Source: Thioalkalivibrio sp. ALJ24
Lineage (GTDB): Bacteria; Pseudomonadota; Gammaproteobacteria; Ectothiorhodospirales; Ectothiorhodospiraceae
Length of the DNA: 64,000 nucleotides
NCBI RefSeq assembly: GCF_000377785.1
Contig: NZ_KB898726.1
Coordinates: 89,801 to 153,800 of the forward strand
Direction: 5' to 3'
The notes beneath the pieces are model-generated. The model ran no database searches. It saw only the letters and a list, made by a program, of their open reading frames with translations, and had not been told where the DNA came from. Positions 15,038-25,774 of this stretch are shown in pieces (position 1 is the stretch's first letter; each line of letters opens with the position of its first letter). The translations under genes were made by a program, and so were the position numbers.

Positions 15038-16168
15038 TCAGGCGCCCGGCAGAATCTCGCTGAGGTGCTCCACGGCGCGATCCAGGTCCGCCGTGGCGTG
15101 GTAGAAATGCGGCGAGAAGCGGATGCCTCCACCGCGCATGGCGCACAGCACCCCGGCCTCCTGCAGGCGCTTGTAGACCTCCTCAAGAGAGATCCCGTCA
15201 AGCAGGTCGGGGGACGGCCGGAAGGTCAGGATGCCGGCACGACGCTGGCGCGGGCTGAGGATCTCGCAGCCCAGCGAGCGCAGACGGTCTTCCAGGTGCA
15301 GCCAGTGTTCCCGAATCTCTTCATCCACCCGGTCCATGCCGGTCTCCAGCAGCAGCGACAGACTGCCGTGCAGTGCATGGATCCCCAGCATGTTCGGGCT
15401 GCCGGGCTCGAAACGCCGCGCGGTGGGCGAGGGCGCCAGTGACGGATTGTCGAAATCCCCGGCGTGTTCCAGCATGTGCCAGCCGTATTCGTTCAGCGTC
15501 AGCCGATCCCGCGCCTGCGGATCGACGTAGAACAGGCCGATGCCTTCCGGCGCGAGCATCCATTTGTGCGCATCGGCCATCACGAAATCGGCCTGACAGC
15601 CGGGGGCATCAAAGGGCAGGGCGCCGAGATGCTGGATCGCGTCGACGCAGAACAGGACTCCGCGCTTGTGCAGTTCGTTGCCGAGAAACTGCACATCCAG
15701 GCGCAGGCCGGTGTCGTAGCGTACCGCGCTGGTGGAGAGCAGGGCGGTGTCGCCATCACAGGCGCGCAGCAGATCGAGTTCCGGTTCCTCGCCGACCGTG
15801 ACCTCGCGCACTTCCAGGTTGAAACGTTCCGCGGCCGCGTGCCACACCACGCGGTTCGAGGGAAATTCGCCCGCGGGGATCACGATGTTCTGGCCCGCCT
15901 TCCAGGGCAGTCCGAACGCCACCATCGACAGTGCCTCGGACGTGTTCTTCACGAACGCCACGTCCTCCGCCGCCGGGGCTCCGATCAGCTGGCGCGCCAG
16001 TTCGCGTGTAGCCGCGATGGTCTCCAGCCAGCGGCCATAGCCCCGTGACCCGCGATGCAGGTTCTCGCGCGCGAAGGCCTCCACCGCTTCGACGGTACGC
16101 CGGGGCCAGGGCCCGACTGCCGCGTGGTTCAGGTGGATGATGTCGTCGTGGGGAAACTCCGAATTCAT
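15038..16168 (-). CDS. Class V aminotransferase-fold PLP enzyme, function unassigned
   Basis: A 376-residue PLP enzyme of the NifS/isopenicillin-N-epimerase-like class V fold. The PLP lysine is Lys202 in VMADAHKWMLAPEG, and the aspartate that contacts the PLP nitrogen is in LFCVDAIQHLGAL. It starts with the LNHAAVGPWP motif of this group. The catalytic cysteine loop of SufS-type desulfurases is not present; the C-terminal region reads CAMRGGGIRFSPHFYH, so a desulfurase role is unlikely. The ATG at 16168 has AAGGAGGG in front. It diverges from the KamA-family gene across 254 bases. The reaction cannot be named. Confidence 0.82.
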   Translation of the reverse strand: MNSEFPHDDIIHLNHAAVGPWPRRTVEAVEAFARENLHRGSRGYGRWLETIAATRELARQLIGAPAAEDVAFVKNTSEALSMVAFGLPWKAGQNIVIPAGEFPSNRVVWHAAAERFNLEVREVTVGEEPELDLLRACDGDTALLSTSAVRYDTGLRLDVQFLGNELHKRGVLFCVDAIQHLGALPFDAPGCQADFVMADAHKWMLAPEGIGLFYVDPQARDRLTLNEYGWHMLEHAGDFDNPSLAPSPTARRFEPGSPNMLGIHALHGSLSLLLETGMDRVDEEIREHWLHLEDRLRSLGCEILSPRQRRAGILTFRPSPDLLDGISLEEVYKRLQEAGVLCAMRGGGIRFSPHFYHATADLDRAVEHLSEILPGA

Positions 16169-16422
16169 GATGCCCTCCTTGCAAGTAGGGGCGAGGGTAA
16201 CCCAGCGGGCTGGCAAAATGGTAACTTGAGTGGTCGCGGGCCATCCCTTGTTCCCCCGCAAACCGCTTGATAACGTACGCATCGCTGTTTCCCCGATGGG
16301 GCAGCCCTCGCCCCGAAGGCCCGCCGCGCGACCGACCCGGTGCCGGAGCCACCATGATTTCGACGATCGCGACGGCTGAAAGCGGCCATCGCGGACGTTC
16401 CGACCGTCGACAGGAGGTACGG

Positions 16423-17793
16423 ATGAACTCCGTTCTCAAGTTCTACCAGGACCCGGAGGCGGGCTCGATCGAGCCGCGCGAGTTCCAGGTCTACAACGAT
16501 CGCAACCTGGATCGCATCGAGGCCCTGGAGCGTGTCCCCGAAGACATGCGTTTTGACATGCGCGTGGTGGCCAGCGTGCTGCCTTTCCGCGTCAATGAAT
16601 ACGTAATCGACGAATTGATCGATTGGGACAACATCCCGCAGGATCCGATGTTCCAGCTGACCTTCCCGCAGCGGGAGATGCTTTCGCCGGAGGCCTTCGA
16701 GCGAATGGCCGAGCTGCATCGACGGGGTGCCGACCGCAGGGAGATCGCCGCGCTGGCGAAGGAACTGCGCGAGGAGCTGAACCCGCACCCTGCCGGCCAG
16801 ATGGAACTGAACCGCCCCAGCGAGGACGACGGCGAGGTCATCAACGGTCTGCAGCACAAGTATCGCGAGACCCTCCTGTTCTTCCCCAGTCAGGGCCAGA
16901 CCTGCCACTCCTACTGCACGTTCTGCTTCCGCTGGGCGCAGTTCGTGGGCGACAAGGATCTGCGCATCGCCTCCACCGATGCGGGCCTGCTGCATCAGTA
17001 CCTGCGTGAACATCCCGCTATATCGGATCTGCTCATGACCGGCGGGGATCCGATGGTCATGAAAACCAGGAACCTGCGTGGCTATCTGGAGGGTCTGCTG
17101 GAACCCGGACTGGAGCATGTGCAGACCGTGCGGATCGGAACCAAGGCGCTGTCCTTCTGGCCGTACCGTTTCGTGACGGAGGGCGATGCCGATGACCTGC
17201 TGCGGTTGCTGGAACAGCTGGTCGAGGGCGGCAAGCACGTGGCCCTGATGGCGCATTACAACCACCCGAACGAGCTGCGCACCCCGATCGCCCGCGAGGC
17301 GATCCGCCGGGTGCGTGACACCGGCGCCGAGATCCGCGCCCAGGGGCCGCTGCTTCGCCACATCAACGACGACCCGCAGGCCTGGGCCGATCTGTGGCGC
17401 GAGCAGGTGCGCCTCGGGATCATCCCGTACTACATGTTCGTGGAGCGCGACACCGGCGCCCGGCGCTACTTCGAGGTGCCGCTGGCGCGCGCCTGGGAGA
17501 TCTACCGCGAGGCGATGCAGCAGGTATCGGGGCTGGCGCGCACCGCGCGCGGGCCGTCCATGAGCGCCGATCCGGGCAAGGTGGAGATCCAGGGCGTGAC
17601 CGAGATCCACGGGGAGAAGGTCTTCGTGCTGCGCTTCATCCAGGGCCGCAACCCGGACTGGGTGCAGCGCCCGTTCTTCGCCCGTTGCGACGAGAACGCC
17701 ACCTGGCTGAACCAGCTGAAACCGGCTTTCGGCGAGGAGAAGTTCTTCTTCGAGGACGAATTCGAGGCGATGAAGGCCGGCCACGGGGTCTGA
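16423..17793 (+). CDS. KamA-family radical SAM, PLP-dependent aminomutase-like protein
   Basis: A 456-residue relative of lysine 2,3-aminomutase. The radical SAM cluster cysteines are Cys161, Cys165 and Cys168 (CHSYCTFC). Arg170 matches the substrate-carboxylate arginine (Arg134 of the clostridial enzyme), and Lys386 in SADPGK aligns with the PLP lysine Lys337. Of the two aspartates that hold the lysine side-chain amine, Asp293 is kept (Asp316 in LLRHINDD) but Asp330 becomes Ser379. The substrate is therefore probably not lysine. RBS AGGAGGT precedes the ATG; bioA follows three bases after the stop codon. Confidence 0.85.
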   Translation: MNSVLKFYQDPEAGSIEPREFQVYNDRNLDRIEALERVPEDMRFDMRVVASVLPFRVNEYVIDELIDWDNIPQDPMFQLTFPQREMLSPEAFERMAELHRRGADRREIAALAKELREELNPHPAGQMELNRPSEDDGEVINGLQHKYRETLLFFPSQGQTCHSYCTFCFRWAQFVGDKDLRIASTDAGLLHQYLREHPAISDLLMTGGDPMVMKTRNLRGYLEGLLEPGLEHVQTVRIGTKALSFWPYRFVTEGDADDLLRLLEQLVEGGKHVALMAHYNHPNELRTPIAREAIRRVRDTGAEIRAQGPLLRHINDDPQAWADLWREQVRLGIIPYYMFVERDTGARRYFEVPLARAWEIYREAMQQVSGLARTARGPSMSADPGKVEIQGVTEIHGEKVFVLRFIQGRNPDWVQRPFFARCDENATWLNQLKPAFGEEKFFFEDEFEAMKAGHGV

Positions 17794-17796
17794 CCC

Positions 17797-19155
17797 ATGA
17801 GCAACGAAGACGTACGCCGGCGCGACCTGCGGGCCCTGTGGCATCCCTGTACCCAAATGAAGGATTACGGGGAGGAGGGCACGCTGCCCCTGCTGCCGAT
17901 CGAGCGGGGTGAGGGTGTATGGCTGTACGACTTCGACGGCAATCGTTACCTCGACGCGATCAGCTCCTGGTGGGTGAACCTGTTCGGTCACGCCAATCCG
18001 CGCATCAACGACGCGCTCAAGGAGCAGGTCGGCCGCCTGGAGCACGTGATCCTGGCCGGCTGCACCCATGAGCCGGTGGTGGAGCTGAGCGAACGCCTGA
18101 TCGACATCACGCCGGCAGGGCTCGACCGGGTGTTTCTGGCCGACAACGGCTCGGCCGGCGTGGAAGCCGCGCTCAAGATGAGCTTCCACTACTGGCGCAA
18201 TGTCGGCCAGCCGCAGAAGACCCGCTTCATCGGGGTCTCCAACGCCTATCACGGAGAGACCATCGGGGCCCTTTCGGTCAGTGACGTGCCGCTGTACCGG
18301 CACACCTACGAGCCGCTGATGCTGGACGTGATCAATGTCCCGGGGCCCGACTGCTTCCACCGCGAGCCGGGCGAGGACTGCGCCGATGTGGCCCGCCGCC
18401 AGTTCGCGCACATGGAACGGGCCCTGGAACGCCACGCCCACGAAGTGGCTGCGGTCATCATCGAGCCGCTGGTGCAGTGCGCCGGTCACATGCGCATGTT
18501 CGACCCGGAATACCTGCGCCTGCTGCGCGAGGCCTGCGACCGCCATGGCGTGCACCTGATCGCCGACGAGATCGCGGTGGGCTTCGGCCGTACCGGGACC
18601 CTGTTCGCCTGTGAGCAGGGGCCGATCACGCCCGACTTCCTGTGCCTGTCCAAGGGCCTGACCGGCGGTTATCTGCCGATGGCGGCGCTGCTGACCACCG
18701 ATACGGTCTATCAGGCGTTCTACGACGATTACGAAAAGCTCAACATGTTCCTGCACTCGCATTCCTACACCGGGAACCCGCTGGCGTGCAGGGCCGCGCT
18801 GGCGACGCTGGACATCTTCGACTCCGAACCGGTGCTGGAACGCAATCGCGAGCTGGCCGCGCACATTGCACGGCGCCTGGAGCCGCTGAATGATCACCCG
18901 CACGTGGCCGACGTGCGCCAGCACGGCATGATCGCCGCGGTCGAGCTGGTGCAGGACAAGGCCAGCCGGACCCCGTACCCGTGGCAGGAACGGCGGGGTC
19001 TGGATATCTACCGCCACGGTCTGACCCGCGGGGCGCTGCTACGCCCGCTGGGCAACGTTTCCTACCTCATGCCGCCATACGTGATCACCGAGGACCAGAT
19101 CGACTTCCTCGCGGAAGTCATGGCCGAGGGCATCGACATCGCGACCCGCGACTGA
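17797..19155 (+). CDS. bioA: Adenosylmethionine-8-amino-7-oxononanoate aminotransferase
   Basis: BioA makes 7,8-diaminopelargonate in biotin synthesis, normally with S-adenosylmethionine as amino donor. The 452-residue class III aminotransferase starts with the BioA signature LWHPCTQMKDY, has SSWWVNLFGHANP, and carries the PLP lysine Lys286 in LCLSKGLTGGYLP. No other bio gene is nearby. It follows the KamA-family gene by three bases and is probably cotranscribed with it, so a wider substrate role is possible but not shown. Confidence 0.88.
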   Translation: MSNEDVRRRDLRALWHPCTQMKDYGEEGTLPLLPIERGEGVWLYDFDGNRYLDAISSWWVNLFGHANPRINDALKEQVGRLEHVILAGCTHEPVVELSERLIDITPAGLDRVFLADNGSAGVEAALKMSFHYWRNVGQPQKTRFIGVSNAYHGETIGALSVSDVPLYRHTYEPLMLDVINVPGPDCFHREPGEDCADVARRQFAHMERALERHAHEVAAVIIEPLVQCAGHMRMFDPEYLRLLREACDRHGVHLIADEIAVGFGRTGTLFACEQGPITPDFLCLSKGLTGGYLPMAALLTTDTVYQAFYDDYEKLNMFLHSHSYTGNPLACRAALATLDIFDSEPVLERNRELAAHIARRLEPLNDHPHVADVRQHGMIAAVELVQDKASRTPYPWQERRGLDIYRHGLTRGALLRPLGNVSYLMPPYVITEDQIDFLAEVMAEGIDIATRD

Positions 19156-19233
19156 CGACGCGGCGCGCAATCAGCGAATCGCGTCAACGTATCCCGACGT
19201 CAGCCGGTCCGTTCCTCTGCCCATATAACGTCG

Positions 19234-19249
19234 CATAATGAATATTATG
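19234..19249. repeat. AT-rich inverted repeat in the bioA/mtnP gap
   Basis: CATAAT and ATTATG form a perfect 6-base inverted repeat with a 4-base spacer, inside a roughly 30-base AT-rich patch in otherwise GC-rich DNA. It lies between the convergent bioA and MTIP-type genes. It is not a terminator of the usual kind; it could be a protein-binding site. Confidence 0.35.
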
Positions 19250-19297
19250 TTAAATAGTGGAAAGGGGTAAGCATGGGTCCGACACTGGACCGCGACC

Positions 19298-20050
19298 TCA
19301 CCCAATGGTCGCGATCACCCTCGCCAGCAAGCGTTTGACCTGCTCCATCCCCGTTTCCAGATTGCGCGCGATCTCGTCCATGGTGATCTCGCCCTCACTG
19401 CGGCCGGCGGCGCGATTCGCGACCACCGCGCAGGCGGCATAGTTGAGTCCCAGTTCGCGCGCCAGCGCGGTTTCCGGCATCCCGGTCATGCCTACAATGT
19501 CGCAGCCGTCGCGTTCCAGCCGGTCGATCTCCGCGGCGGTCTCCAGGCGCGGCCCCTGGGTGGCACCGTAGGTACCCTGCTCACAAATCGGCAGATCCAG
19601 TTCGTGGGCCGCGTTGAGGATCTTCTGGCGCACCTCCGGGCAATATGGCCAGGTCATGTCCACGTGGGTGACCTCTTCCAGATGCCCGCCCTCAAAATAG
19701 GTGTTCGCGCGCGACCAGGTGTAGTCGATGATCTGGTCCGGAACGGCCAGCCGTCCGGGCTGCATGCATTCGGTGATGCCGCCCACCGCCGCCACCGCGA
19801 TCGCGGTCTCCACGCCGGTATTTTTCAGCGCCCAGATGTTCGCGCGGTAGTTCACCTGATGCGGCGGGATGGTATGGCGCGCCCCGTGGCGCGGGAGAAA
19901 GACGGTCTCGATGCCATTGAGCCGCCCGAACACCAGCGGTCCGGATGGTTCGCCGTACGGCGTATGCATCACCCGCCGATGGGTGATCTCCAGGTCCTTC
20001 AGGCGGGTCAGGCCGGTGCCGCCGATGATCGCCAGTCGGGGGGTACTCAT
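19298..20050 (-). CDS. mtnP: S-methyl-5'-thioinosine phosphorylase (MTIP type)
   Basis: A 250-residue purine nucleoside phosphorylase of the MTAP/PNP fold, with IIGGTGLT at the phosphate loop, FLPRHGARHTIPPHQVNYRAN, and VGMTGMPETALAREL near the substrate site. It resembles the P. aeruginosa enzyme PA3004, which splits methylthioinosine rather than methylthioadenosine, more than classical MtnP. The gene ends a two-gene unit with hpt 11 bases upstream, which would recycle the hypoxanthine released. The mtnP symbol is used broadly; MTIP activity is an inference from family resemblance and context. Confidence 0.85.
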   Translation of the reverse strand: MSTPRLAIIGGTGLTRLKDLEITHRRVMHTPYGEPSGPLVFGRLNGIETVFLPRHGARHTIPPHQVNYRANIWALKNTGVETAIAVAAVGGITECMQPGRLAVPDQIIDYTWSRANTYFEGGHLEEVTHVDMTWPYCPEVRQKILNAAHELDLPICEQGTYGATQGPRLETAAEIDRLERDGCDIVGMTGMPETALARELGLNYAACAVVANRAAGRSEGEITMDEIARNLETGMEQVKRLLARVIATIG

Positions 20051-25698: not shown

Positions 25699-25774
25699 TC
25701 CCCGGTAGCTCAGTCGGTAGAGCGGGTGACTGTTAATCACTAGGTCGGCGGTTCGAGCCCGTCCCGGGGAGCCA
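25699..25774 (+). tRNA. tRNA-Asn (anticodon GTT)
   Basis: A complete 76-base tRNA. The acceptor arm TCCCCGG pairs with CCGGGGA, the D loop is AGTCGGTA, and the anticodon loop CTGTTAA places GTT at 25732-25734. The T arm contains GGTTCGAGCCC, and the terminal CCA is encoded (25772-25774). A terminator follows at once, so it is a single-gene transcript. Confidence 0.97.

Follow-up and report, generated by a model that had tools for sequence, protein, structure and literature searches.

The gene at positions 16423-17793 of the analysed DNA stretch (64,000 nucleotides of Thioalkalivibrio sp. ALJ24, in the following called the window) encodes a protein, P0001, that is probably a SAM- and PLP-dependent 2,3-aminomutase converting L-glutamate to beta-glutamate (3-aminoglutarate), as judged from its sequence and by analogy with related systems, and that differs in type from the clostridial enzyme. 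Glutamate is favoured because of the arginine-containing substrate pocket, the position of the protein in a clade of its own beside other enzymes with an arginine at position 293, the occurrence of a relative (L116) in a gene cluster of the macrolactam type, and the TAXI receptor encoded next to the relatives in Halomonadaceae. The neighbouring genes in the window, bioA and a class-V aminotransferase gene, say nothing on glutamate.

Gene, family and fold

The reading frame of the gene is intact and comprises, upon translation, 456 codons and a stop codon. The gene and its flanks show the following features:

15038..16282, minus strand: divergent class-V aminotransferase-like gene, start uncertain (PF00266, E 1.3e-46)
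16412..16417, plus strand: AGGAGG, resembling a ribosome-binding site, ahead of the ATG at 16423 (sequence reading)
16423..17793, plus strand: KamA-superfamily radical SAM/PLP aminomutase P0001, 456 aa (open frame, TIGR00238, PDB 2a5h, AlphaFold2 model)
17797..19155, plus strand: bioA, 7,8-diaminopelargonate synthase (NF005443, 833 bits, cut-off 729)

Since bioA begins 3 bases past the stop codon of the aminomutase gene, the two genes are possibly co-transcribed. A scan of 16100-19400 for promoters and terminators yielded none of either, and no Na+ or other riboswitch was found at 15900-17900, where a single match was at chance level. No RNA gene other than that of tRNA-Asn (GTT) at 25699-25774 was detected in the window.

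Among 29 loci of relatives, of which some are clipped by contig ends or short flanks, bioA lies beside the aminomutase gene in 21 and the class-V aminotransferase gene, which stands upstream of P0001 in the window, is present in 24. Within the best 80 of at least 581 loci, bioA adjoins the aminomutase gene only in L032, L033 and L034, and the class-V aminotransferase cluster occurs only in L032, L033 and L044. The latter neighbour is kept in this lineage only. As a clue to function bioA was rejected, since it is the sole bioA of the genome (single match above the cut-off of TIGR00508) and is rarely found beside the gene beyond the close lineage.

P0001 belongs to the KamA superfamily, as had been proposed in the initial annotation: it comprises the CxxxCxxC motif, the PLP lysine and the fold of lysine 2,3-aminomutase (LAM). 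It matches the KamA family model TIGR00238 with an E of 2.4e-42 and 145.1 bits, which is below the cut-off of 199.2, so that it represents a relative outside the curated subfamily and is not filed under this model. The scores against the models for lysine 2,3-aminomutase (AblA, TIGR03820; 122.8 bits, cut-off 525.4), AblA_like_2 (118.2 bits, cut-off 396.25), EpmB (TIGR03821; 100.1 bits, cut-off 369.3), clostridial glutamate 2,3-aminomutase (TIGR04368; 92.7 bits, cut-off 650) and arginine aminomutase (88.2 bits, cut-off 600) place P0001 under all curated NCBIfam cut-offs of the models it matches. One further match to P0001 is present in this genome, namely its EpmB.

The sole sequence relative of solved structure at E <= 0.001 was LAM 2a5h (HMMER, E 6e-21). 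The AlphaFold2 model of P0001, which was built from 34 sequences, showed a mean pLDDT of 84.4 and a pTM of 0.86; it is weak at residues 1-13, 169-176 and 454-456. By blocks, the pLDDT amounts to a mean of 68 for residues 341-350, which include Arg342, and to 57/48 for residues 161-180, which comprise the cluster loop and Arg170. The model aligned with 2a5h over 336 residues at a Z of 30.8, an rmsd of 3.6 and 22% identity (VIA-align, model range 14-449), and the second-best structure match reached a Z of 13.8.

Substrate pocket and conservation

The residues of the active site were placed in register with LAM as follows:

16903..16926, plus strand: Cys161-x3-Cys165-x2-Cys168, [4Fe-4S] cluster motif, aligned with LAM C125/C129/C132
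16930..16932, plus strand: Arg170 codon, LAM Arg134 (HMMER and 40-sequence alignment)
17368..17370, plus strand: Asp316 codon, LAM Asp267 (HMMER alignment)
17446..17448, plus strand: Arg342 codon, LAM Asp293 (HMMER, profile and 40-sequence MAFFT alignments)
17539..17550, plus strand: Arg373 to Arg376 codons, the two arginines corresponding to LAM Val324 and Phe327 (40-sequence alignment)
17557..17559, plus strand: Ser379 codon, LAM Asp330 (EpmB/2a5h-based register and 40-sequence alignment)
17578..17580, plus strand: Lys386 codon, LAM Lys337, the PLP lysine (EpmB/2a5h-based register and 40-sequence alignment)

HMMER pairs residue 333 of P0001 with residue 284 of the 2a5h chain and hence Arg342 with Asp293. 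The offset in numbering remains constant at 49 from Pro335/Pro286 through Lys386/Lys337, where the C-terminal part of the 2a5h chain was read off the alignment of EpmB to 2a5h. For LAM, we take Arg134 to bind the alpha-carboxylate, Asp293 and Asp330 to bind the epsilon-amine, and Lys337 to be the PLP lysine; the clostridial glutamate 2,3-aminomutase presumably has Lys at position 293 and Asn at position 330.

In agreement with the initial annotation, the cluster cysteines, Arg170 and Lys386 are in register with their counterparts in LAM, and Ser379 takes the place of Asp330, no Asp being found at this position in the alignments. A different result was obtained for Asp316, which had been regarded as a retained amine-binding aspartate. 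This residue pairs with LAM Asp267 within an 'ND' motif that is also present in the EpmB of this genome, and it varies in the family (D in 73 of the 80 genome loci and in all 10 plasmid loci, N, K, A or R in the remaining 7 genome loci). Its equation with Asp293 was rejected as a wrong register, and the true partner of Asp293 is Arg342. As read from the alignments, both amine-binding aspartates of LAM are absent in P0001. The proposed change of the pocket is thus real, but more radical than had been described: the arginine at position 293 and the invariance of Arg342, Arg373 and Arg376 point to a charge reversal and not to a half-lysine pocket. Of the view that the protein is neither the lysine nor the glutamate type, the first part holds, and by sequence P0001 is also not of the clostridial glutamate type; the conclusion that it is not glutamate-specific is unsupported, because it rested on the mis-registered Asp316. 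Arg342 together with a neutral residue at 330 is the same kind of combination, a cation and a neutral residue, as the Lys and Asn assumed for the clostridial type.

A comparison of the pocket positions in the 40-sequence MAFFT alignment showed D293/D330 for LAM, six near relatives of it (L164-L169) and the rows L174 and L175, and D293/E330 for nine EpmB-type rows. Row L173 carries E293 and A330, but is aligned with gaps nearby, so that position 330 was left unread there. Position 330 is also gapped in the Met293 pair L170 and L171 and in L125, L132 and L133, which carry Arg293 outside the P0001 family. In all 16 rows of the P0001 family, R293 is accompanied by R324 and R327, and position 330 is S, V or I. 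The pair L170 and L171 (G323, G326) is KamA-like with Lys324 and Lys327 beside Met293 and represents another unnamed pocket type.

P0001 shares with LAM (KamA/AblA) the fold, the radical SAM motif, the arginine of position 134 and the PLP lysine, but differs from it by Arg for Asp293, Ser for Asp330, the low score against TIGR03820 and a separate clade. EpmB, which acts in the beta-lysylation of EF-P, belongs to the same superfamily, but in 9 of the 10 rows of its tree group Asp293 is retained together with Glu330 instead of Arg and Ser, L175 having Asp330. With the clostridial glutamate 2,3-aminomutase, P0001 probably has the reaction in common, and both combine a basic residue at 293 with a neutral one at 330; the residues themselves are Arg and Ser rather than Lys and Asn. 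Since the D293/D330 enzymes L164-L169 reach 354 to 383 bits on TIGR04368 compared to 92.7 for P0001, the clostridial type is nearer to LAM than the P0001 family. None of 398 genomes exceeded the cut-off of TIGR04368.

The conservation of the pocket was determined in the best 80 of at least 581 genome stretches, all of them at least 67% identical to P0001, and in 10 aligned plasmid loci of 50-58% identity, with 49 plasmid records matched. Among the plasmid loci, L115 and L185 stem from two strains of the same species, and L184, a Nocardia copy broken into two pieces, was excluded from the counts. The three cluster cysteines, Arg170, Arg342, Asp343, Arg373, Arg376 and Lys386 showed no variation in any of the 80 genome and 10 plasmid loci. 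Position 379 was S in all 80 genome loci, and V in six and S in four of the plasmid loci. As the 80 loci are the nearest of at least 581, the invariance holds for near relatives and for ten members at 50-58% identity.

In a tree of 51 proteins (midpoint root, long branches), the 27 rows of the P0001 family were split off by one branch with a support of 100/100, at the end of a long branch with 2.6 changes per column. The phylogeny that the initial annotation had suggested as a check reveals an own clade apart from all Asp293 rows. Together with an enzyme of Paenibacillus and two of rhizobia, which comprise Arg293, the family forms one side of a branch supported by 99/90, and every Asp293 row, the Met293 pair and the Glu293 row are located on the opposite side.

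At least 581 stretches of a species-level genome collection encode a relative of P0001 (tblastn, E <= 1e-3). Such relatives are carried by 29 of 276 evenly drawn Gammaproteobacteria (E <= 1e-80) and, at E < 1e-100, by 18 of 29 congeneric genomes and by all 7 genomes from other genera of the same family; one of the 11 genomes of the genus that lack the gene is just 80% complete. The nearest carriers include Halomonas, Marinobacter, Azoarcus, Thauera, Nitrosomonas, Lysobacteraceae and Binatia. Of the 19 plasmid records that match best, 13 call the gene lysine 2,3-aminomutase. Altogether, the subfamily is widespread, real and intact, and it is probably misnamed. Among the open-access papers listed by the literature search, none dealt with its proteobacterial members.

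Gene context of the relatives

Of the plasmid copies, L112-L116, L182, L183, L185 and the broken L184 carry annotation, and L117 and L118 are bare. The aminomutase of Streptomyces NBC_00334 (L116) is 51.6% identical to P0001, comprises the same set of Arg342, Arg373, Arg376 and Lys386 and falls inside the 100/100 clade. Its gene is located in a type I PKS cluster and adjoins the gene of a PLP aminotransferase-fold protein; two AMP-binding proteins, a stand-alone carrier protein, an ACP S-malonyltransferase and a proline-iminopeptidase-like hydrolase are encoded there as well. According to the account of macrolactam biosynthesis in PMC11284099, such a gene set is that of macrolactams with beta-amino acid starters, and by analogy the NBC_00334 locus looks like a macrolactam starter set. 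For incednine, the same account gives beta-glutamate as an intermediate and IdnL3 as its decarboxylase, and the disruption of idnL4 confirmed the part of this gene (PMC11284099). The same pair of genes is reported for the pretilactam cluster, consisting of the aminotransferase plmJ (419 aa) and plmK (450 aa), the latter being listed as a glutamate 2,3-aminomutase and having a 'lysine 2,3-aminomutase' as its nearest record (gene list in PMC6631532). Like pairs are described for several 3-aminobutyrate macrolactams, for which the feeding results partly disagree, as for example for salinilactam A (cases treated in PMC9230918).

Based on the gene set, we infer that L116 is a counterpart of IdnL4, the presumed producer of beta-glutamate in incednine biosynthesis, and use it as a stand-in for this enzyme. 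The likeness of P0001 to the IdnL4 type (incednine; plmK of pretilactam) results from L116, which belongs to the same clade and lies in a cluster of the macrolactam type. Contrary to the IdnL4 type, P0001 comprises Ser instead of Val at 379 and adjoins no PKS gene and no candidate for an IdnL3-like decarboxylase of the aminotransferase fold, but bioA and the class-V aminotransferase gene.

A PLP aminotransferase-fold gene directly adjoins two of the annotated plasmid copies, those of Streptomyces NBC_00334 and Amycolatopsis AA4, and these share 50% protein identity over 414 residues. In Amycolatopsis AA4, a gene of the Glu/Leu/Phe/Val-dehydrogenase type lies near the aminomutase gene. Three Binatota loci encode proteins 34-35% identical to those aminotransferases at a distance of a few kb, with another gene between where shown. 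In the incomplete gene tables of L112, L114, L115, L182 and L185 (actinomycetes and Burkholderiales), no adjoining aminotransferase is present.

Further surroundings were observed on other plasmids. In Streptomyces cellulosae (L183, 1-11329), the family member is preceded by an NRPS, a PLP aminotransferase at a distance of about 6 kb, a type III PKS and three genes of the enoyl-CoA-hydratase type. On the Rhodococcus plasmid pDK3 (L114, 10001-19988), it adjoins cupin, luciferase-like monooxygenase, SidA-type monooxygenase, class I tRNA-ligase-family, ATP-grasp and GNAT genes. Plasmids of Rhizobium etli (L132, 3818-10894) and Sinorhizobium meliloti (L133, 472-8215) carry a different KamA-like gene with Arg293, Lys324 and Lys327. 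Nearby lie an ectoine synthase gene (L132), ectB and an aspartate-semialdehyde dehydrogenase gene (L133) and, in both, genes of the biotin-carboxylase-subunit family; this region might represent a biosynthetic cluster that is so far unstudied.

Among the 80 genome loci, no neighbours common to many lineages were found by eye. Instead, there are lineage blocks: the Halomonadaceae have a TAXI-TRAP set, the Rhodocyclales carboxylase genes and Marinobacter a pyruvate-dehydrogenase-like gene. In addition, two or three loci at a time share single neighbours, such as regulators or the citrate-synthase-like gene of L082 and L090. In the Rhodocyclales loci L059, L062, L073 and L100, the genes upstream of the aminomutase gene resemble acyl-CoA carboxylase subunits (by eye).

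The best 80 of at least 581 loci comprise 16 with Halomonas, Billgrantia or Litchfieldella in their titles. All but one of these 16 have a gene for a TAXI solute receptor next downstream of the aminomutase gene, and it is followed by a fused TRAP permease in 14 and a universal stress protein (Usp) in 13 of the 15. The loci are close kin, so they do not represent 15 independent cases. In the exception, L045, the upstream gene is of the type usual in Marinobacter. The Pfam and NCBIfam names of the set were checked on one locus, L061, whose receptor has 8s4j as its best solved relative (E 6e-114). In the part of PMC11574862 on VcGluP, this receptor of V. cholerae is described as glutamate-specific; the paper contains the code 8S4J, and the residue names of VcGluP fit the 8s4j chain with an offset of 28. 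Mapping by hand showed that of the six mutated ligand residues of VcGluP, L061 keeps Y45, S75, Q93, E125 and Y200, while M201 is changed to V; D157 corresponds to Q. This match is only mildly specific, because 78% of TAXI sequences have Y45 and 54% have Q93 (PMC11574862).

Substrate and cellular role

In LAM, a 5'-deoxyadenosyl radical derived from SAM acts on the external aldimine of the substrate with PLP, and the amino group migrates through a cyclic radical. By analogy, the [4Fe-4S] cluster on Cys161, Cys165 and Cys168 of P0001 would cleave SAM to this radical, and the substrate would be bound as external aldimine of the PLP that is held by Lys386 in the resting enzyme. Arg170 would hold the alpha-carboxylate while the amino group moves from C2 to C3 via the cyclic radical. 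Arg342 and Ser379 in place of Asp293 and Asp330 of LAM, with Arg373 and Arg376 near in sequence, would suit a distal carboxylate.

The records named lysine 2,3-aminomutase, the position of LAM as best solved relative and GNAT acetyltransferase genes in the flanks of two actinomycete members would be in line with lysine as substrate, the change in the pocket being tolerated and beta-lysine or N-acetyl-beta-lysine being formed. This is hardly credible, as both amine-binding aspartates are replaced, one of them by an arginine that is invariant in 90 aligned loci, and lysine was rejected as likely substrate also in view of the AblA score far below its cut-off. Furthermore, EpmB, which likewise uses lysine, retains two acids, and inspection of the 80 genome loci by eye revealed no acetyltransferase-like cluster that recurs next to the aminomutase gene. 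It is nearly as improbable that P0001 keeps the fold but catalyses another radical SAM/PLP reaction than the 2,3-amino shift. While the long branch and the scores below all family cut-offs could be explained in this way, the cluster, PLP and carboxylate residues are invariant in the aligned loci, and the likely counterpart idnL4 is required for a beta-amino acid.

More weight is due to a different amino acid whose tail is anionic or polar, for example 2-aminoadipate or a cluster-specific one, and to a difference in substrate between proteobacterial and actinomycete members, but this is still unlikely. Such differences within the family may be reflected by position 330, which is Ser in the 80 genome loci and Val in 6 of the 10 plasmid members, and members of the family are found in biosynthetic clusters of several different kinds. 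On the other hand, the only type of member with pathway evidence points to glutamate, and the receptor in Halomonadaceae resembles a glutamate-specific one. Aspartate is unlikely, because its 2,3-shift merely gives aspartate back. Altogether, the conversion of L-glutamate to beta-glutamate remains the reading that we prefer.

A function of the product as osmolyte of this host would concern its role and not the chemistry; such a role is possible, but doubtful. Many of the 80 nearest carriers are named as halophiles, e.g. Halomonas and Marinobacter, and the receptor-bearing Halomonadaceae loci comprise the TRAP importer and the Usp protein described above. Contrary to this, Azoarcus, Thauera, Nitrosomonas and Lysobacteraceae, which are mostly not salt-adapted, are also among the nearest carriers, as is Binatia. 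The aminomutase gene is absent from the 11 genomes of the same genus mentioned before, and no riboswitch was found at 15900-17900. In 276 Gammaproteobacteria (39 carriers of ectoine synthase, 29 of the aminomutase), ectoine synthase was present in 7 of 29 aminomutase carriers and 32 of 247 non-carriers, which is no significant association (Fisher p = 0.15, kinship ignored and the genome set of both searches assumed to be identical). Beta-glutamate is an osmolyte of methanogens and was detected in Nocardiopsis halophila according to the review PMC1224877, which also states that early NMR excluded a glutamate aminomutase as its source in methanogens. The eam genes are sometimes controlled by Na+ riboswitches, as mentioned in PMC9337991. 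In Moorella, the glutamate 2,3-aminomutase gene was raised by blue light, and beta-glutamate was suggested as a protectant (statement in PMC7835215).

Within proteobacteria, the product of the P0001 family may be a solute, which in Halomonadaceae may be recaptured by the neighbouring transporter, and in some actinomycetes it would feed the starter units of antibiotics. As a tentative and rather doubtful proposal, hundreds of proteobacteria together with Binatota and actinomycetes might possess a second family of glutamate 2,3-aminomutases, misnamed lysine 2,3-aminomutase, whose pocket was reversed apart from the clostridial one. Many halophiles would then contain an unrecognised pool of beta-glutamate, which a dedicated TAXI-TRAP importer would recapture in Halomonadaceae. 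With at least 581 stretches encoding a relative and the name lysine 2,3-aminomutase in 13 of 19 plasmid records, models that rely on this name would expect beta-lysine in cases in which beta-glutamate is the likelier product.
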